Origin: Bacillota bacterium
Lineage (GTDB): Bacteria > Bacillota > Sulfobacillia > Sulfobacillales > JAIMBI01
Assembly (NCBI GenBank): GCA_021846565.1
Contig: JAJZWS010000025.1
Span: 1 to 42,036, forward strand
Length of the DNA: 42,036 nt
Direction of reading: 5' to 3'
The position numbers and the translations under genes are program-made. Under the pieces are notes generated by a model. The model made no database searches and was not told the DNA's origin. It worked only from the letters and a program-made list of their open reading frames with translations. How positions within the stretch are numbered: position 1 is the stretch's first letter; the number at the start of each line of letters is the position of its first letter. Below, piece by piece: positions 15,226 to 32,027 of the stretch.

Positions 15226-15386
15226 GGCATTTGTGCGCGTGACCGTCGCGGATCCAGGCGGAGTCCGCTGCCGTACTTAAAATCGGTGGCATGCCTGAGG
15301 CGCAGCACCGGCTGACGCGTCAAGCAGGGTTTCCGCGGGGGGCGGGGCTATACTGCTGTCCTGCCGCGCGGCAGCGGCGTACTAAG

Positions 15387-15422
15387 AAAGAATCGCGGAA
15401 AGAATCGCGGAAAGAATCGCGG
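15387..15422 (+). repeat. Three tandem 12-bp repeats
   Basis: AAAGAATCGCGG occurs three times head to tail with no mismatch. It sits just before the fragment of a dioxygenase gene, at the left edge of the decayed ccm region, and probably arose by replication slippage. Confidence 0.9.
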
Positions 15423-21619: not shown

Positions 21620-22411
21620 ATGTCATTAAGTGTGGCTGAACCGCTGGTGCTCCGCGACGATCACCTGGCGCAGGAGCACATCGTGCGGCTGACCTTGAAC
21701 CATCCGGCGAAGCGCAACGCGCTGTCGGCGGCGATGCTCCGCGCCCTCGCGGAGGCGGTCGAAGGGGTCGCGCCAGACGAGGCGAGCATCATCATTCTGC
21801 GGGCGGCCGGGCCGGCCTTCAGCGCCGGGCACGACCTGAACGAAATTTTGCACGGGACGGACGACGAGGTGGCGGCGGTGTTCGAAGCCTGCGAACAGGC
21901 CATGCAGGCCATTCGGCAGGCGTCGCAGATTGTCGTGGCGGAGGTGCAGGGCATTGCGACGGCGGCGGGATGCCAGCTGGTGGCCACCTGCGATTTGGCG
22001 GTGGCGGCCTCGTCGGCGCGGTTTGCCACGCCCGGGGTGCGCATCGGGTATTTCTGCGTCAGTCCCGGGGTTGCGCTGTCCCGCAACGTGGGTGTGAAGG
22101 CGGCGGCGGCCATGCTGTTCACCGGCGAACCTGTGACGGCCGCCGAGGCGCTGGCGGCCGGTTTGGTCAATCGCGTGGTGCCGGCAGAGGCCGTCGAGGA
22201 CGCGAGCCTTGCGATGGCGCGGAGCATTAGCCGATTCAGCCGCCACGTGCTGGCCCACGGCAAGCAACACTTTTACGCCCAGCTCGCGATGTCTTACGGT
22301 GACGCCCTCAGCTACGCCAGTGGCGTCATGGTGGCGCAGCGGGCCATGCCCGATGCTCACGAGGGGATGGCGGCGTTCTTGTCGAAACGGGATCCCACGT
22401 GGCTGTCCTGA
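21620..22411 (+). CDS. Enoyl-CoA hydratase/isomerase family protein
   Basis: A 263-residue crotonase-fold protein. AFSAGHDLNEI near 66-76 and GIATAAGCQLVATCDLAVA near 113-131 form the two parts of the oxyanion hole that binds the thioester carbonyl. The region where hydratases carry their catalytic Glu pair reads differently (GVRIGYFCVSPGVAL), as in ECHDC3-like members, so hydration of a normal enoyl-CoA is not certain. AAAGGAGG precedes the ATG. A TACAAT at 21543-21548 is a possible -10 box. It stands alone, between tRNA-Pro and a transport lipoprotein. Confidence 0.85.
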   Translation: MSLSVAEPLVLRDDHLAQEHIVRLTLNHPAKRNALSAAMLRALAEAVEGVAPDEASIIILRAAGPAFSAGHDLNEILHGTDDEVAAVFEACEQAMQAIRQASQIVVAEVQGIATAAGCQLVATCDLAVAASSARFATPGVRIGYFCVSPGVALSRNVGVKAAAAMLFTGEPVTAAEALAAGLVNRVVPAEAVEDASLAMARSISRFSRHVLAHGKQHFYAQLAMSYGDALSYASGVMVAQRAMPDAHEGMAAFLSKRDPTWLS

Positions 22412-22522
22412 GCGCGTCCGTGCAAATATTTCAGGGTTTCTCCTCCCAAATCCCCGCTGGGGCGTTTCAAAAATTCTGGACACGTGCTATGGTGCTCGCG
22501 TAGGAGGGCCGAGCTTTATCCG

Positions 22523-22555
22523 ACGTTTAGCCAACGGTTAACGAACGTTTAGCCC
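22523..22555 (+). promoter_or_regulatory. Three 11-bp phased direct repeats, possible response-regulator site
   Basis: Three tandem 11-bp units: ACGTTTAGCCA, ACGGTTAACGA and ACGTTTAGCCC. The outer two agree in 10 of 11 bases, the middle one in 8 of 11. An 11-bp period puts all three on one face of the helix, as in PhoB/OmpR-type binding sites. They lie in the 301-bp gap before the substrate-binding lipoprotein gene, 56 bp upstream of a candidate promoter. Confidence 0.5.
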
Positions 22556-22610
22556 GTCCGCTCCTATCCCGCCTCTCATCCGGACCACTGGCGACATGCG
22601 ATGCGTCACC

Positions 22611-22638
22611 TTGGGTTTGCGGCGGGCCTTGCTATACC
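22611..22638 (+). promoter_or_regulatory. Candidate promoter of the substrate-binding lipoprotein gene
   Basis: TTGGGT at 22611-22616, a 16-bp spacer, and TATACC at 22633-22638. It is about 75 bp before the GTG start. The rest of the gap between 22411 and 22713 holds the phased repeats and no gene. Confidence 0.4.
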
Positions 22639-22712
22639 GGCTTCTAAGAGCGATTCGCATCTGAGTTCGCTCCGACCACGCCGCGGCGGAGGTCAACAAC
22701 GGAGGTGGGCGC

Positions 22713-24482
22713 GTGCGCGAGATAGTCAACCCCCGCTGGGTGCGATGGGGCATGCTGGCGGCGGGATCTTTGGGGCTCATTCTGGCAGGGTGCGGGAGCT
22801 CCCCGACTCCCACGGCGAGCAGCGTGAAAAGTATCACGCTGGTGGGGGGCGTCGTTACGGAACCCACGTGGTGGTTTCCGGTGGACCCGGTGTCGTACAA
22901 CTCGACGTCCAACGACGTCTCGGGTTTGATGTGGCAGAGTTTATTCCACATCTCCAAAAACGACACCATCAACTTCAGTCGGTCCATCGCGTCGAGCATC
23001 ACACCGAGCAAGAACGACACGGTCTTTACGATTAAATTTAATCCCAAGTGGCATTGGTCCAACGGGACGCCGGTGACCGCTTACGACAGTGCGTTCACGT
23101 GGCAGATTTACAAGGCGTCCAGCGTCTCGTCGGCGCCGTGGGAAAACAGCAGCGTCGGCGGGACTAGCTTCGACCGCATCCAGTCGGTGGTGGCAAAAAA
23201 CGCTAGTACATTGGTGGTGACCATCACCAAGCCGTCCAACCCCGTGTGGGTGGAGCTGAACGTGTTGAACTACCCCACGCCGGTGCCGGTGAAAGTCTGG
23301 AACCACTACCCGGATCCCTCGAACCCGAACCTGGTCAACCCGGCCGACATGACCAAGGAGCTCAACTGGCTCCTGAAGGTGGGTCGGACGCCGTTGGCCC
23401 CGCAATTTCGCGTCGTGGACGGGTCGTACGACGTCACCAAGTTTGTCAACAACAACTACTGGGTGATGAGCGCTAACCCCAACTACGACGGACACAAGGC
23501 CACCATCAAGACGCTGGTGTACCAGTACGAGACGTCGTCGACGCGTGTGTATGTGGGCCTCAAAAGCGGCCTGCTGGCCGAGGCGTCGCTGCCGTCCGCC
23601 TACACCGCGGATGCCCACAGCTTGAGCGGGTATCGGGCGGCCAATCACGGGTACGTCATCAGCTACAACCTGTTGCAACCGAACTTTCACAGCAATGCCC
23701 CGGTGATTGGCGGGCTGTTCAACCAGTTGTACTTCCGGCAGGCGATGCAGATGGGCATCAACCAAGCCGCCATCGCCCAGCACCTGTACCACGGCTTTGC
23801 GATTCCTGGTTGCACCGTGGTGGCGCGGGAGCCGGCCAACCCGTATTACGACACGCACGTGCATTGCTATCCGTACAATCCGGCGGCCGGCAAGAAGCTG
23901 CTGGAGCAGCACGGGTGGACGCCCAACAGCAACGGCGTGATGACCAAGAACGGCGTCACGCTGGCATTCAACTTCCTGGTGATGTCGGGGTCCACCACGG
24001 ACACGAACATCGTGCAGTACCTGAAGCAAAGCTGGGCGCAGGAGGGCATCGACGTCACCCTGAATCAGCAGCCGTTCTCTCAGCTGATCAACCTCATCAC
24101 CAACCCGAAAAATACAGGCAAGTGGGACTTGGCGTGGTGGGGGGCCGGCTGGTACGAGGGCGTGGGCTATCCGAGCACCAGCCTCTACCTGACGGGAGCC
24201 ACCAACAACTTTGGCGGCTTCTCAAGCAAAACCATGGACCGGCTGGCCACGGCGGTTTACGCGCCGGGCACTCCGGCCCAGGCGCAGCAGCGGCTGGACG
24301 CGTACGAAGAATACGCGGCCATCAACCTGCCGGTCCTGATGATGCCGGAGTACGTGGGAGTGGGCACGCCCGCCCCGTACCGAATCATCAAAAACGGCCT
24401 GCACGGGGTGTCGAAGTACCATTCCCCCGTCAATGGCGGAACCGAGCCGTGGCGGTGGACGGTGACGTCTCCGTCGGTTTAG
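22713..24482 (+). CDS. Peptide/nickel-type ABC transporter substrate-binding lipoprotein
   Basis: A 589-residue extracellular family-5 solute-binding protein. The signal sequence has a charged start, a hydrophobic stretch (13-25) and the lipobox LAGC with Cys27 as the lipid anchor, followed by a Ser/Thr/Pro linker. The mature part shows family signs: VSGLMWQSLFHI, KWHWSNGTPVTAYDSAFTW near 110 (the 'W-x-DG-x-P-x-TA-x-D' block) and a C-terminal PEYVG/PAPYR segment. It is rich in Asn, Thr and Tyr, as secreted proteins of acidophiles and thermophiles often are. GGAGGT precedes the GTG. No permease or ATPase gene is beside it, so its transporter must be elsewhere. Ligand unknown: peptides, nickel-chelate or sugars. 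Confidence 0.9.
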   Translation: MREIVNPRWVRWGMLAAGSLGLILAGCGSSPTPTASSVKSITLVGGVVTEPTWWFPVDPVSYNSTSNDVSGLMWQSLFHISKNDTINFSRSIASSITPSKNDTVFTIKFNPKWHWSNGTPVTAYDSAFTWQIYKASSVSSAPWENSSVGGTSFDRIQSVVAKNASTLVVTITKPSNPVWVELNVLNYPTPVPVKVWNHYPDPSNPNLVNPADMTKELNWLLKVGRTPLAPQFRVVDGSYDVTKFVNNNYWVMSANPNYDGHKATIKTLVYQYETSSTRVYVGLKSGLLAEASLPSAYTADAHSLSGYRAANHGYVISYNLLQPNFHSNAPVIGGLFNQLYFRQAMQMGINQAAIAQHLYHGFAIPGCTVVAREPANPYYDTHVHCYPYNPAAGKKLLEQHGWTPNSNGVMTKNGVTLAFNFLVMSGSTTDTNIVQYLKQSWAQEGIDVTLNQQPFSQLINLITNPKNTGKWDLAWWGAGWYEGVGYPSTSLYLTGATNNFGGFSSKTMDRLATAVYAPGTPAQAQQRLDAYEEYAAINLPVLMMPEYVGVGTPAPYRIIKNGLHGVSKYHSPVNGGTEPWRWTVTSPSV

Positions 24483-24601: not shown

Positions 24602-27600
24602 ATGAACGATGGGCGGAAGGGCAACGAGACCGGCGGAGTGCGCCGGGCCGTAGAGAACCAGGCGCTGTGGCGGCAGCTCGGACCGTTTCGCGGGGGACGG
24701 GTGGTGGCGGTGGCGGGGGATCCCCGCGACCCCGCCACCTTTTACTTTGGTGGCGCGGCCGGCGGTGTGTTCAAGACCCAGGATGGCGGCGCCACCTGGG
24801 ACAACGTGTCTGATGGATTTTTCCGTGCCGCCTCGGTGGGGGCACTGGCCGTGTCGGCTTCGGAGCCGTCGGTGGTGTACGCCGGCATGGGTGAGGCCTG
24901 CATCCGCGGCAATGTGGTGGCGGGCGACGGCGTGTGGCGGTCTCCGGACAGCGGTGCCACCTGGGAGCACCGGGGGCTTTGTGCGACCCAACATATTGCG
25001 CGGGTGCGAGTGCACCCACACCACGCGGATTGGGTGTATGCGGCCGTGCTGGGGCACCCGTACGGGCCCCATCCGGACCGCGGTGTGTTTCGCAGCCGCG
25101 ACGGAGGGCGGCACTGGGACAAAATCCTGTACCGGGATGACCGCAGTGGCGCGGCGGATCTCGTCATGGATCCGCGGCGCCCCACCCTCTTGTACGCGAC
25201 CCTGTGGGACGCCCACCGCACGCCGTGGTCGCTCTCCAGCGGCGGGCCCGGCAGCGGGCTCTTTAAAAGTGTGGATGGCGGAGACACGTGGATCGATTTG
25301 ACCCATCGCCCCGGACTCCCCGAGGGGGTGCTGGGCCGTATGGGCGTGGCCGTGTCCCCCGGCACCGATGTCGTGTGGGTGATGGTGGAGGCGGCCGCCG
25401 GGGGGCTCTATCGATCGGACGACGGCGGCGGGCACTTTGTGCGCGTGACCGACAACCCCGACCTGATCCAGCGGCCGTGGTACTACATGCATGTGTTTGC
25501 CGACCCCGCCGACGTGGACACGGTTTATGTCCTGAACCTGCGCATGTGGCGGTCCAAAGATGGGGGACGGCACTTCACGGCCATTCCCACCCCGCACGGG
25601 GATAACCACGATCTGTGGATCGACCCCGAGCGTCCCGGCCGGTGGATCGAAGGCAACGACGGCGGGGCGTCCGTGTCCTACAACGGGGGCCGCACGTGGA
25701 GCCTCCCGTACAATCAGCCGACGGGGCAGTTCTACCACGTCACCACGGACCGGGAATACCCGTTTCGGATTTACGGCGCCCAGCAGGACAACAGTACCAT
25801 CTCGCTGCCCAACTTTTCGGACAAAGGAGCCATCACGGCGGGTGACACTTATCCGGTGGGCGGCGGCGAGAGCGGGTACATTGCGGTGCGCCCCGATCAG
25901 CCCCACATCGTGTTTGCCGGAAACTACGCCTCGCGCCTGACGCGCTACGACCACCGTTCCCACCAGCAGGTGGACATCACCGTGTGGCCGGAGGATCCGA
26001 TCGGATACGGTGCGGGAGACCTCCGGTACCGCTTCCAGTGGACGTTCCCCGTCTTGCTGTCTCCCCACGATCCGAACTGCCTCTACACGTGCGGCAACCA
26101 CGTGTTTCGGAGCTTGGACGGGGGTCAGCACTGGGAGGTGCGGAGCCCCGACCTGACGCGAGGCGATCCCAAGACCCTGGGGTCGTCCGGAGGCCCCATC
26201 ACGCAAGACAACGTCAGCACCGAATACTACGGCACAATCTTTGCCTTCGCCGAGTCCGGGTGCCAGCCCGGTGTGCTCTGGGCCGGGTCGGATGACGGCC
26301 GGGTGCACGTGTCTACGAACAACGGGGACACGTGGGCGGACGTGACACCCCCGGACCTCCCGGACTGGGCGCTTGTCAGCATCATTGAGCCGTCCCCGCA
26401 CGCCAGCCAGACGGCCTACGTGGTGGCCACGCGGTATAAGATGGACGACCGGGCGCCCTACGTGTACCGCACGGACAACTTCGGGGAGACGTGGCGGCGG
26501 TTGGACGACAGCCTCCCGTCTGACGACTTTGCCCGCGTGCTGCGGGAGGACCCCGGGTGTCCTGGCCTCCTGTACCTTGGTACCGAGTCCGGGCTTTACG
26601 TGTCCTACGACGGCGGCATCGACTGGTGCCGCCTCGGGGGACGGTTTCCCGTCACCCCGGTTCACGACCTCGCTGTGCATGACGAGAGCTTGGTGGTGGC
26701 GACGCATGGCCGCGGGTTCTGGGTGCTGGATGACCTCACGCCCTTCCGAGAGGCACGGGGACTGGCGGCTGAAAGCCAGGAGGCCCGGCTGTTTGCTCCG
26801 CCCGTCGCCGTGAGGCGACAGTCCGGCCGGCAGATGCGCGTGGAGCCGGTCGGAGGCTTTCACACCTACCGGCAGGCAGCGGGGGAAATGGTGGTGGGGA
26901 AGCCGGTGGCCGACGGCTTCTCGCCCGCCACGGCGGGCGAGAACCCTCCCGCCGGCGCCGTGCTCCTGTACTACCTGCCGGCTGCACCCGAGGCGCCGGT
27001 GCACCTCACGATTCGGACACGCGATGGCCAGGTGCTGCGTGAGGTGGCGAGTGACGACGGCAGTGTCTGGGGACGGTCACTCCGGCCGCGCGCGGGGCTC
27101 AACCGGGCGGTGTGGGACCTCAGGGTGGCCAGCGGCGAGGAGCTGCCGGGGGCGCTGCTGTCGGGCTACTGGGGCGGCAGTACCATAGGGCCCGAGGTGC
27201 CGCCGGGACAGTACCGGGTGGAGATCGCGAGCGGGGCGGTGCACCTGACCGGCGTCGTCACCGTCCGCCTGGATCCGCGCGTCCAGGGAGTCACGCAGGA
27301 GGACGTGGAGGCCCAGTATGGACTGCTGCTCGCCATTCGCGACCAGCTGTCCGCTGTGCACCGGGCGGTTCTGCGGGCGCGTGCGGTGCGCGCCCGCCTG
27401 GCGGAGCAGGCGCAAGAGTTGGAAGCAATCGGGCAGGCCGCCCTGGCCGAGGAGGCCCACAGCATGGTGATCCGGGTGCTCGGGATTGAGGGGGAGCTGC
27501 ACCAGGCCAAGAGCCGAGGGCGGGCCGACTCGTTCAACTACCCGCCGAAGGTCAACAGCCGGCTGGCCTCCTTGCAGTCCACGGTGGCGTTTGGGCTGTC

Positions 27601-27769
27601 GCGGCCCCCCCAGCAGTGTTACGACGTGTTTGAACGCTTGGCCGAGGAGGCTCGTGGGCACGTAAGCGCGCTCGATCACCTGATGGCGGATGCGGTGGTT
27701 CCGCTGTCGCGCCGCCTGACGGCAGCCATACCGCCGCTGGGACTCACGGCGCCGCCCTCCCGAGCGTAG
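24602..27769 (+). CDS. Large BNR/Asp-box (sortilin-like) beta-propeller protein
   Basis: A 1,055-residue protein. About eleven Asp-box motifs (S/T-x-D-x-G-x-T-W, for example KTQDGGATW, RSPDSGATW, KSVDGGDTW, RSLDGGQHW, VSTNNGDTW, RTDNFGETW) are spread over residues 55-690, predicting two joined beta-propellers like those of sortilin/VPS10 and BNR 'glycosyl hydrolases'. The start LWRQLGPFRGGRVVAV and IRGNVVAGDGV are typical of a large family usually exported. After a beta-rich part (LNRAVWDLRV near 835) comes a helical region (about 895-1000). No signal peptide or membrane helix is visible here. GGAGGG precedes the ATG. Enzymatic activity is not established for the family; a peptidase or ligand-binding role is guesswork. 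Confidence 0.85.
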   Translation: MNDGRKGNETGGVRRAVENQALWRQLGPFRGGRVVAVAGDPRDPATFYFGGAAGGVFKTQDGGATWDNVSDGFFRAASVGALAVSASEPSVVYAGMGEACIRGNVVAGDGVWRSPDSGATWEHRGLCATQHIARVRVHPHHADWVYAAVLGHPYGPHPDRGVFRSRDGGRHWDKILYRDDRSGAADLVMDPRRPTLLYATLWDAHRTPWSLSSGGPGSGLFKSVDGGDTWIDLTHRPGLPEGVLGRMGVAVSPGTDVVWVMVEAAAGGLYRSDDGGGHFVRVTDNPDLIQRPWYYMHVFADPADVDTVYVLNLRMWRSKDGGRHFTAIPTPHGDNHDLWIDPERPGRWIEGNDGGASVSYNGGRTWSLPYNQPTGQFYHVTTDREYPFRIYGAQQDNSTISLPNFSDKGAITAGDTYPVGGGESGYIAVRPDQPHIVFAGNYASRLTRYDHRSHQQVDITVWPEDPIGYGAGDLRYRFQWTFPVLLSPHDPNCLYTCGNHVFRSLDGGQHWEVRSPDLTRGDPKTLGSSGGPITQDNVSTEYYGTIFAFAESGCQPGVLWAGSDDGRVHVSTNNGDTWADVTPPDLPDWALVSIIEPSPHASQTAYVVATRYKMDDRAPYVYRTDNFGETWRRLDDSLPSDDFARVLREDPGCPGLLYLGTESGLYVSYDGGIDWCRLGGRFPVTPVHDLAVHDESLVVATHGRGFWVLDDLTPFREARGLAAESQEARLFAPPVAVRRQSGRQMRVEPVGGFHTYRQAAGEMVVGKPVADGFSPATAGENPPAGAVLLYYLPAAPEAPVHLTIRTRDGQVLREVASDDGSVWGRSLRPRAGLNRAVWDLRVASGEELPGALLSGYWGGSTIGPEVPPGQYRVEIASGAVHLTGVVTVRLDPRVQGVTQEDVEAQYGLLLAIRDQLSAVHRAVLRARAVRARLAEQAQELEAIGQAALAEEAHSMVIRVLGIEGELHQAKSRGRADSFNYPPKVNSRLASLQSTVAFGLSRPPQQCYDVFERLAEEARGHVSALDHLMADAVVPLSRRLTAAIPPLGLTAPPSRA

Positions 27770-28735: not shown

Positions 28736-30124
28736 ATGACCGTCCTGAGACGAATGCGCGTGTGGCTGGCCATCATGGGGGTTCGCGCGCTGGTGGGGAT
28801 CCTACGCGGCCTTTCCCGCGGCGGCGGCGCGTTGCCGGGGCGCGTGGCCCTTGCCATCGCGCCGGAGCTCTTGCGCGACCTCGCCCGGCGATTGCCGCGG
28901 GGCGTGGTGATGGTCACCGGCACCAACGGCAAAACCACCAGTGCGCACCTCTTGGACGAAGTCCTGACCGAGGCGGGGATCCAGGTAGTCCGCAATCATA
29001 GTGGCGCCAACCTGGCCAGCGGATTGGCCACCGCGCTGGCTCTGAACCGCGGCGCGGACGTGGCCGTCCTGGAAACGGATGAGGCCACCGTCCCGCGGGT
29101 GGCGGCGGCGCTGGCGCCGACCGTCATGGCGGTGTCAAATTTTTTTCGCGATCAGCTGGACCGGTACGGGGAGCTGACCACCACGGTCGGCCATGTGCAG
29201 CGGGGCCTGCCGCACATGGCCCGATCCGGTGTGGCGGTGCTGAACGCCGATGACCCCAACGTCACGTCCCTGGCCGCATCGGCCGCGCGGGTCGTGTATT
29301 TCGGATTGACGGGGACCGGCCGGCCGGCCCCTGCGAATGGGGCGGACGGAGCAGACGCCCGACGCTGCCCCGCGTGTGGAGGCGCGCTCGCGTACCAGGT
29401 GTATCAATACGCCCACTTGGGGTCGTACGCCTGCGCGGCGTGCGGGTTTCACCGCCCCCCCCTGGACTTGGCAGTCGCCGTGCACTCCCACCCGGCGGGA
29501 CAGGAACTGGAGATGGACTGGCACGGAGAGCGTTGGCGCGTCCCGCTGTCGCTGCCGGGCACGTATAATGCCTACAATGCGGCGCTGGCGGCGGCGGCGG
29601 CGCTGACGCTGGGGGTGGCCCCGGCCAGCGTGGCCAGCGGCTTGGCCCGGGCGGGTGCGTCCTTCGGCCGGATGGAGGCGCTGGTGTGGCGCGGGGTCGA
29701 CGTGCGCGTGGCCCTGGTCAAAAACCCTACAGGGTTCAATCAGGTGCTGGAGACCTTGGCCGACGACCCCCGGCCCAAAGACGCGGTGATGCTGGTCAAC
29801 GACCGCTATGCCGATGGCCGCGACGTGTCGTGGCTGTGGGACGTGGACTTTGAAGCGCTCCTCGCGGGGACAGGGATCGATCGGATCTGGACCGGGGGCA
29901 CGCGTGGACGGGACATGGCCGTGCGCCTGAAGTACGCGGGGCTGCCCCCGGATCGGGTGGTGGCCGTGCCGGGGCCGCCGGCGGCGGTGCTGGCCGCGGC
30001 GGTGGACAGTGCCGGTGAGGGAGCGGGGCGCCGGCTCTACGTACTGCCGACGTACACCGCGTTGTTGGCCGTACGGCAGCGGTTGGCCGCGGAAGGAGTG
30101 GTGCGCCATTTCCGGGAAGGGTAA
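28736..30124 (+). CDS. murT: MurT-type Mur ligase (lipid II isoglutaminyl synthase subunit)
   Basis: A 462-residue Mur-ligase-family protein with the MurT (DUF1727) C-terminal domain. VTGTNGKTTSAHLL near 59-72 is the ATP loop, NFFRDQLDRYGE near 136 the central conserved segment, and four cysteines in CPACGG and CAACG (about 215-240) form the MurT zinc ribbon. KNPTGFNQVL and NDRYADGRDVSWLWDVDFE are typical of the C-terminal part. With GatD, MurT amidates D-Glu of lipid II to D-isoglutamine. No gatD gene adjoins it. The ATG is preceded by TACACT-GGGGAC, a -10 box that would start the mRNA at the ATG itself, so it may be leaderless. SelB follows. Confidence 0.9.
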   Translation: MTVLRRMRVWLAIMGVRALVGILRGLSRGGGALPGRVALAIAPELLRDLARRLPRGVVMVTGTNGKTTSAHLLDEVLTEAGIQVVRNHSGANLASGLATALALNRGADVAVLETDEATVPRVAAALAPTVMAVSNFFRDQLDRYGELTTTVGHVQRGLPHMARSGVAVLNADDPNVTSLAASAARVVYFGLTGTGRPAPANGADGADARRCPACGGALAYQVYQYAHLGSYACAACGFHRPPLDLAVAVHSHPAGQELEMDWHGERWRVPLSLPGTYNAYNAALAAAAALTLGVAPASVASGLARAGASFGRMEALVWRGVDVRVALVKNPTGFNQVLETLADDPRPKDAVMLVNDRYADGRDVSWLWDVDFEALLAGTGIDRIWTGGTRGRDMAVRLKYAGLPPDRVVAVPGPPAAVLAAAVDSAGEGAGRRLYVLPTYTALLAVRQRLAAEGVVRHFREG

Positions 30125-30161
30125 GCGGGCCGGCGAGCGGCCCGCCGCCGGCGATCAGCCC

Positions 30162-32027
30162 GTGGTGTTTGGGACCGCGGGCCACATTGACCACGGGAAG
30201 ACGACGCTGGTGCGCGCCCTGACCGGGCGCGACACGGACCGATTGCCGGAAGAGAAGCGGCGCGGCATCTCCATCGACTTGGGCTTTGCGCCGCTCACGC
30301 TCCCCTCGGGCCGGCGCGCAGCGTTTGTGGACGTCCCCGGGCATGAGCGGTTCATTCGCAACATGGTGGCCGGGGTGCACGGCATGGACGCTGTGTTGCT
30401 GGTGGTGGCCGCGACCGAGGGCGTCATGCCGCAAACCGTGGAGCACTTGGCCATCCTGGACTTTCTAGGGGTTAGTGACGGTCTGGTGGTGCTCACGAAA
30501 GCCGACCTAGTCGAGGCGGACTGGCTTGACCTGGTGGCGACCGACACGCGGGCGACGCTGGCAGGCAGCTTTCTGGGATCCGCTCCCATCCTTGCGGTAG
30601 GCACCCCCTCCGGCCGAGGGATGCCCCTTGTGCTCGCGGAATTGGACCGCCTGGCGTCGGTCGTGCGGCCGCGGGATGCGGGTGGGGTGCTGCGCCTGCC
30701 GGTGGACCGCGTGTTTTCCGTGCGGGGCTTTGGCACGGTGGTGACCGGCACCCTGACCCGCGGTACGCTCCGAACGGATGAGGCGGTGGAGCTGGCGCCG
30801 GGAGGGCCGCGGGCGCGCGTGCGGGGGCTCGAATCTCACGGCGAGGTGGTGACCTTCGCCAGGGCCGGCCAGCGGGTCGCGGTGAACCTCTCGGGCGTGG
30901 ACCGCGCGGCGGTGGTGCGAGGCCAGGTGTTGACCCACCCGGGTCAGCTGGACCCGGTGACCGTGGCGGCGGTGGAGCTGACGCTTTTGCCGGACGCGCC
31001 GGCCTTGAAGCATCGGGGGCGGGTTCACACGTACGTGGGTACGGCCGAGGCGCTTGCCCGTGTTTACTTCTGGGATCGCGACGCCTTGGCCCCTGGAAGC
31101 CAGGCGTGGGCGGAGCTGCGGTGGGAGGAACCCGTCGTGCTGCAGCGGGGGGATCGGGTCCTTATTCGCACGTACAGTCCGGTGGTGACGGTCGGTGGTG
31201 GCGTGGTGGCCGAGGTAGGGGTTCACCATCGGCGGCGTGAGCCCAACCTGCTGGCCCGGCTGGACGAGCAGTTGGCGGGTGATCCCCTCACGCTCCTAGC
31301 GGAGGGCCTAGTGGGGCGCGAGGCGCCCCTGGCGCTGGACCAGGCGGCCCGGCAACTGGCCACGCCCCTCGAAGATCTGTCACGCGTGGTCGGCGAGCGC
31401 CCGGACATCACCCTCATCGCGGGGCGCTGGGTGTGGTCACCGACCGCCGCCCGCCGCGTGGCGGACCGGGTGCGGGAGGTTGTGACGGCCTACCACCGGG
31501 AGCATCCGCTGCGCTCCGGCTGGCCCCGCGAGCGCCAGAAGCAGGAGTTCCCGGAGTGGGATCCTCGGCTGTTTGGCCAGTGGGTGGCCGCGGTGGATGG
31601 CGTGGAGTTGGAGGGCGACGTGTTGCGCCGGACGGGCTTTCAGGTGGAACTGAGCGAGGCGCAGGCGGCATGGCGGGCCGAAATTCGAGAGGCGGTACGA
31701 GGGCGGGGGCTGGAGCCGCCGGACCTCGCATGGGTTTTGACCCGCGTCTCGGCGCCCGAGGACAGGGTGCGGGATGTGGTTGAGTGGATGGTGGCGCAGG
31801 GGGAACTGGTGCGTCTCGGTGACCAGTTGCTGGTGGACGGTGGGGTGTATGCGGAGGCGATCCGGGCGATCGCGGCCGCCCTCGCCCGGGAGGGACCGTT
31901 GGGGACCGCGGCGCTGCGCGACGTCCTGGGGACGACCCGCAAGTATGCCGTGCCGCTTTTGGAACGCATGGACGAGGCGCGCGTGACGCGTCGGGAAGGG
32001 GACGTGAGGGTGTTGGTGCAGTCGTGA
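30162..32027 (+). CDS. selB: Selenocysteine-specific elongation factor SelB
   Basis: A 621-residue GTPase that brings Sec-tRNA to UGA codons marked by a SECIS element. GTAGHIDHGKTT at 4-15 is the G1 loop, DVPGHERFIRNM near 60-71 is G3, and TKAD near 113 is G4. Domains II and III follow (RVFSVRGFGTVVTGTL near 187), then C-terminal winged helices that bind SECIS RNA. No ATG fits the start. GTG 30162, giving MVFGTAGH, matches the usual SelB N-terminus but has a weak ribosome site; an ATT at 30108 has AAGGAG before it and is a less likely alternative. It implies that the organism uses selenocysteine, although selA, selD and tRNA-Sec are not in this window. Confidence 0.93.
   Translation: MVFGTAGHIDHGKTTLVRALTGRDTDRLPEEKRRGISIDLGFAPLTLPSGRRAAFVDVPGHERFIRNMVAGVHGMDAVLLVVAATEGVMPQTVEHLAILDFLGVSDGLVVLTKADLVEADWLDLVATDTRATLAGSFLGSAPILAVGTPSGRGMPLVLAELDRLASVVRPRDAGGVLRLPVDRVFSVRGFGTVVTGTLTRGTLRTDEAVELAPGGPRARVRGLESHGEVVTFARAGQRVAVNLSGVDRAAVVRGQVLTHPGQLDPVTVAAVELTLLPDAPALKHRGRVHTYVGTAEALARVYFWDRDALAPGSQAWAELRWEEPVVLQRGDRVLIRTYSPVVTVGGGVVAEVGVHHRRREPNLLARLDEQLAGDPLTLLAEGLVGREAPLALDQAARQLATPLEDLSRVVGERPDITLIAGRWVWSPTAARRVADRVREVVTAYHREHPLRSGWPRERQKQEFPEWDPRLFGQWVAAVDGVELEGDVLRRTGFQVELSEAQAAWRAEIREAVRGRGLEPPDLAWVLTRVSAPEDRVRDVVEWMVAQGELVRLGDQLLVDGGVYAEAIRAIAAALAREGPLGTAALRDVLGTTRKYAVPLLERMDEARVTRREGDVRVLVQS

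Follow-up and report, generated by a model that had tools for sequence, protein, structure and literature searches.

A PHO-box-like array of 11-bp repeats in the putative leader of a family-5 solute-binding lipoprotein gene in the Sulfobacillus order

The stretch of DNA analysed here, referred to below as the window, is a contig of 42,036 nucleotides from a bacterium of the order Sulfobacillales. Upstream of a gene for a family-5 solute-binding lipoprotein it carries an array of 11-bp direct repeats, which we consider to be, with moderate confidence, an operator of the PhoP type (PHO box). This reading starts from facts at the sequence level, namely a conserved array that resembles those at phosphate genes, a phoPR-pst cluster in the same genome, and a recognition helix common to the regulators compared. 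Within it, we tend to favour repression over activation as the effect on the gene. The features involved are the following:

22465..22493, plus strand: promoter-like element P1, TTTCAA - 17 nt - TATGGT, recognized by its conservation, the promoter role being putative.
22511..22521, no strand assigned: degenerate fourth 11-bp unit, GAGCTTTATCC, upstream of unit 1.
22522..22532, no strand assigned: unit 1, GACGTTTAGCC, with the minus-strand hexamer CTAAAC at 22530-22525.
22533..22543, no strand assigned: unit 2, AACGGTTAACG, with the minus-strand hexamer TTAACC at 22541-22536.
22544..22554, no strand assigned: unit 3, AACGTTTAGCC, with the minus-strand hexamer CTAAAC at 22552-22547.
22562..22576, plus strand: conserved stretch TCCTATCCCGCCTCT after the array, from the alignment.
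22713..24482, plus strand: family-5 extracellular solute-binding lipoprotein, 589 aa, with a GTG start and GGAGG upstream (Pfam PF00496, E 1e-49).
24602..27769, plus strand: sortilin/Vps10-BNR repeat protein, 1055 aa, the next gene downstream, on the same strand as the binding lipoprotein.

The first-pass annotation had described three adjacent 11-bp units with a near-identical outer pair at 22523-22555, and these are indeed present: in that frame they read ACGTTTAGCCA, ACGGTTAACGA and ACGTTTAGCCC, the two outer ones being identical at 10 of 11 positions, and 25 of the 33 comparisons summed over the three unit pairs match. The array thus has enough 11-bp direct repeats for a PHO box, which requires at least two. 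The cores originally assigned, GTTTAGC and GTTAACG, lie one base out of register with each other, and the in-register units that replace them are CGTTTAGC and CGGTTAAC. Read on the minus strand, the array is CTAAAC-n5-TTAACC-n5-CTAAAC; read on the plus strand with four units, it is TTATCC/TTAGCC/TTAACG/TTAGCC. The fourth unit is a better match in the sister genome G002, where the alignment gives GAGCTTTAGCC, than in the window.

The bare repeat is only mildly beyond chance for the window. Its 25 of 33 matches are the top score at period 11 and are equalled in 3 of 100 simulated windows (order-2 Markov), and when any period from 9 to 13 is allowed, at least 10 of the 100 simulations hold a triple as good or better; the window also contains better triples, at periods 9, 10 and 12. 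A chance repeat is consequently not dismissed by repeat statistics alone, and what remains against it is the conservation of the array and its match to arrays located at phosphate genes elsewhere, which are the reasons why the array counts. Elsewhere in the window, a 12-bp unit is repeated three times in tandem without any mismatch at 15386-15422, which makes it a stronger repeat than the array at 22522-22554.

Conservation was assessed in three congeneric genomes (G001, G002 and G003), whose orthologous binding proteins are 90-93% identical. The array retains 30 of 33 positions in G002 and 27 of 33 in G003 and is absent from G001, where the gene is intact, so that it is kept in two of the three congeneric orthologues. 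Identity at the 4-fold sites of the binding-protein gene is 81%, 63% and 61% for G002, G003 and G001, respectively, and the array sits inside a block more conserved than these synonymous sites. Without mismatches, the triple is found at the orthologous place in three of the four genomes of the genus and nowhere else among 42 genomes of the order. All three substitutions of G002 fall, in the alignment, outside the minus-strand hexamers and inside the plus-strand ones, and the matrix built from phosphate-gene arrays scores the array at 23.2 minus vs 15.9 plus in G002 and 14.6 minus vs 9.7 plus in G003. No array was found at the binding-protein homologues of G004 and G006, which, at about 52-54% identity, are too distant for an outgroup to decide between loss in G001 and gain in the others.

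The likeness to phosphate genes comes from a motif search across the 42 genomes. Searching for triples of YTAAMC-n5 with at most one mismatch yielded 13 matches, spread over 10 genomes; a reversed-pattern control yielded 44, so that the counts alone prove nothing and any weight comes only from gene context and from the independent pstS test described below. The window array and its G002 orthologue account for three of the 13. Among the other ten, four lie directly before phosphate transport genes (pstB-pstS in G016 and relatives of the PHS symporter in G026, G009 and G011), one before a PiT-like gene (G009), one before uppP (G007), and four have no phosphate link that we could see (L145, L147, L148, L151). 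Looser matches are 11-bp arrays before uppP (G007) and before an uppP-like gene, recognized by eye from its first residues, and a PHS-type symporter gene (G009); on their opposite strand these are TTAACC-n5 repeats. In G006, a member of the host's family, a two-unit array also precedes a PHS symporter relative. The top NCBIfam matches of the proteins next to these arrays are the phosphate:H+ symporter, PstB, PstS and undecaprenyl-diphosphate phosphatase, none of them reaching its curated cut-off, and the PiT-like protein is named only weakly, since sulfate permease scores above PitA.

In the pstS test, loci were chosen by protein family (TIGR00975) in the same 42 genomes, not by motif, and seven pass the cut-off. 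In five of them (G005, G016, G028, G009 and G032), the strand of the gene carries an array 0.9-1.2 kb upstream of pstS; with a matrix from which arrays of the same genus were excluded, each of these outscores all 300 simulated sequences. One of the five, G005, belongs to the host's family, and the array of G016 stands directly before pstB, which precedes pstS. The pstS loci of G034 and G039 have no array, and none of 23 weaker pstS-like loci (L174-L196) exceeds 11.4. With the matrix from phosphate-gene arrays, the window array scores 24.5 minus and 22.3 plus, vs 12.3 for the best in 6.8 Mb of simulated sequence; this score is partly circular, because the loci of the matrix were found with patterns derived from the window array. 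The unit sequence is therefore shared with sites at phosphate-uptake genes of related genomes, on evidence that is partly circular for the matrix and motif-independent for the pstS test.

The arrays at pst, PHS and uppP genes are oriented the same way as the gene, and seven of the 11 arrays compared have a TAnnnT in phase 4 (mod 11), counted from the start of the array. Outside phase 4, four arrays have it within a unit itself (phase 1), and L171 (phase 1), L173 (phase 2) and L149 (phase 5) have one occurrence each. The TTAACC-type arrays before pst, PHS symporter and uppP genes at L139, L142, L143, L144, L157 and L168, with TAnnnT in a fixed helical phase, outline a possible design of PHO-box promoters in the Sulfobacillus order. 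In G007 and G009 (L142 and L138), uppP-like genes of two different families each have such an array upstream, which suggests phosphate control of lipid-carrier recycling. At L152, around 1476-1530, a reversed array is located about 25 bp before the start of the PiT-like transporter gene of G009, possibly reflecting repression of low-affinity uptake in starvation.

A cognate regulator is available, as contig C66 of the host genome encodes phoP-phoR-pstS-C-A-B, with top NCBIfam matches to PhoB, PnpS/PhoR and PstS/C/A/B, all below the curated cut-offs. The recognition helix RTVDVH[IV]RH[LV]REKL is present in PhoP of each of the 11 genomes compared, the host and ten others (the short stretch taken from G006 contained no regulator), and RegX3 is the top match of the host regulator among solved structures. 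The proposal that the repeat is bound by a PhoB/OmpR-type, PhoP-like regulator thus survives in kind, through the pst and PHS arrays of related genomes, which belong to the same class of 11-bp direct repeats with TTAAC-like cores, the phoPR-pst cluster of the host and the near-identical recognition helix.

How this regulator would act depends on what lies around the array. The strongest conservation of the region is found just upstream, where 22464-22500 is identical at 36 of 37 positions in G002, 35 of 37 in G003 and 31 of 37 in G001. This segment contains TTTCAA-17-TATGGT, with a TG one base before the -10 (extended -10) and a predicted start near 22500; the element with its TG is present in four of four genomes, including the array-less G001, and its core occurs once in each of these four congeners and nowhere else in them. 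Even though a strict sigma-70 scan and a terminator scan of 22390-22730 listed nothing, P1 included, we read 22465..22493 as the probable promoter P1, whose predicted start would place the array at about +12 to +55. No TAnnnT follows the array in the expected phase, so the arrangement of an activating PHO box is missing here. With the array downstream of P1 and no phased -10, a simple induction in nutrient shortage, the condition suggested by the first-pass annotation, is not borne out.

The orientation of the array is not settled: the plus-strand four-unit score is slightly higher (28.4 vs 25.6 minus), whereas conservation favours the minus strand. Repression is nevertheless favoured, because the array comes after P1, has no phased -10 and is better conserved in its minus-strand reading; the occurrence of P1 even in G001, and the reversed array before the PiT-like gene of G009, are further points on its side. 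Binding by PhoP, the phosphate signal, P1 and the sign of the control are all components that we infer. Three good units and a poor one, about one helical turn apart, would be bound head-to-tail by PhoP, the phosphate-responsive member of the PhoB family encoded in the phoPR-pstSCAB cluster of the host. Since the array would begin about 12 bases after the predicted P1 start and its better-preserved reading runs against the direction of the gene, PhoP~P accumulating when phosphate is scarce may occupy the leader DNA and block initiation or early elongation from P1. This block would result in less binding protein and perhaps in less product of the downstream BNR gene. A bolder version of this proposal is of a re-assigned Pho regulon in this uncultured genus, in which a PHO box absent from the pst cluster has been kept, or gained, in reverse within the transcribed leader of a peptide-type binding lipoprotein, where PhoP~P would serve as a starvation roadblock and phosphate shortage would lower the uptake of another nutrient; we put this forward as a tentative idea, possible rather than likely.

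Within the PhoP reading, the same PHO-type array may instead act as an activator, a sub-case that we hold to be a little less likely than not once PhoP binding is granted and, taken on its own, rather unlikely. PhoP~P on the plus-strand reading would recruit RNA polymerase to a weak promoter at TATCCC (22565), the only -10-like candidate after the array, and raise the binding protein in phosphate shortage. The pst, PHS and uppP arrays would be its model, given their orientation and the single helical phase of TAnnnT in most of them, and it would also account for the higher plus-strand four-unit score and for TCCTAYCCCGCC, which follows the array in all four genomes of the alignment. However, the sixth base of TATCCC is not a T, the hexamer is shifted by one base from the phase of the phosphate-gene arrays, and the three changes of G002 hit the plus-strand hexamers while sparing the minus-strand ones.

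Slightly more doubtful is the explanation in which a different regulator of the OmpR/PhoB family, or another single-gene repressor, binds the repeat and the PHO likeness is incidental. The distribution of the array in the host genome speaks for it and counts against the PhoP reading. With several patterns searched, the array is the only good tandem, with no second exact two-unit array; near matches on C105 and C96 were set aside as probable chance, since they appear to fall within coding sequence or at its beginning. The 13.5-kb phoPR-pst cluster of the host (L163) has no array, its best score being 6.1, nor do the pst clusters of three congeners (L164-L166) have any over 6.1, so the same box is not found at the genome's own pst genes. 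The binding protein has 17 relatives in the host, and a check of 12 other PF00496 matches (10 gene places) found no array, with a best pair score of 14.0 vs 32.4, which rules out a regulon shared with other family-5 binding proteins at the loci examined. Any of the 10 OmpR-type effector domains in the host could bind 11-bp repeats. Contrary to this explanation, the TTAACC-type core is that of phosphate genes in related genomes, the host's family included, and the recognition helix of PhoP is shared. The first-pass annotation had held that its reading would fall if no other instances preceded related transport genes in this or related genomes; half of this applies, as no second such array was found in the host, neither at the pst cluster nor at the other binding-protein loci examined, whereas related genomes do carry arrays before phosphate-transport genes.

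It is improbable that the array is a relic without a function today, left by an ancient tandem duplication or by the decay of a PHO box. The mild improbability of the bare repeat and an intact gene in G001 without the array (a genome that does have PhoP, which also counts against the PhoP reading) would fit such an origin, but an identity of 30/33 and 27/33, set against 81% and 63% at 4-fold sites and within a conserved block, speaks against it. Very improbable is an RNA element of the 5' leader, a hairpin or protein-binding repeats in the transcript: the repeats would be transcribed if P1 is right and a stem GUAGGAG/CUCCUA can enclose them, but the leader folds no better than its shuffles (z 0.57, 146 of 200 folding as well; z -1.30 for a shorter piece) and has no Rfam match at E up to 1.

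The gene that would be controlled by the PHO-type operator encodes a binding lipoprotein whose matches among solved structures are peptide- and nickel-binding proteins, and binding proteins of family 5 are not known as typical members of the Pho regulon, a point against the PhoP reading. Its description as an orphan transport lipoprotein is fair, as none of nine neighbouring proteins scanned is a permease. No terminator-like site was found between it and the BNR gene, which also follows the binding-protein gene in G002, G003 and G004 (BNR part 73% identical) and was not found after it in G001. Array and BNR gene are both absent there, a possible link that rests on four genomes. Further along the window, a SelB-like elongation factor gene at 30009-32024, after MurT, hints at a selenocysteine system; no tRNA-Sec is listed in the window.

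Compared with known systems, the arrangement seen in the sequence is that of PHO boxes, a kind already known. The PhoP boxes of Bacillus subtilis are TTAACA-like repeats, and PhoP~P reportedly acts there as a repressor at tagAB/tagDEF; the window array resembles them in its TTAAC-like hexamers 11 bp apart and in the possibility of repression by PhoP~P, and differs in its target, a family-5 binding lipoprotein, and in being a site predicted from sequence. Other OmpR-family regulators, WalR and MtrA among them, recognize consensus sequences of their own, for WalR one of the TGTAAT type. The nearest form is the cyanobacterial PHO box (SphR/PhoB), which has three CTTAACCT repeats with 3-bp linkers, and in which PhoB binding is weakened or lost when any one of the three TTAA cores is mutated (PMC1906773, PMC11126600). 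Three tandem units, the 11-bp period and the TTAAC core are common to both; in the window, contrary to the cyanobacterial box, CTAAAC forms two of the three hexamers, the better-conserved reading runs opposite to the gene, and the likely promoter precedes the array instead of following it. The phase-4 TAnnnT spacing of the order's arrays is near that of the Escherichia coli boxes, which are reported to stand 10 bp before a TAN3T/A -10 (PMC1906773). The Streptomyces PHO box consists of 11-nt direct repeats with a GTTCACC sequence and seven better-kept positions; the window array shares the 11-nt direct repeats and the seven better-kept positions, but its core is GTTTAGC/GGTTAAC (PMC4415409). 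For Sulfobacillus, a Pho gene set has been described (PMC6803676), and no description of a PHO operator for the order is found among the literature matches listed. What the present analysis adds is a candidate PHO-box consensus for the Sulfobacillus order, YTAAMC every 11 bp with a -10 about 15 nt after the unit start, together with an unusual putative non-phosphate target and array position, at which the sign of control is predicted from position and orientation.
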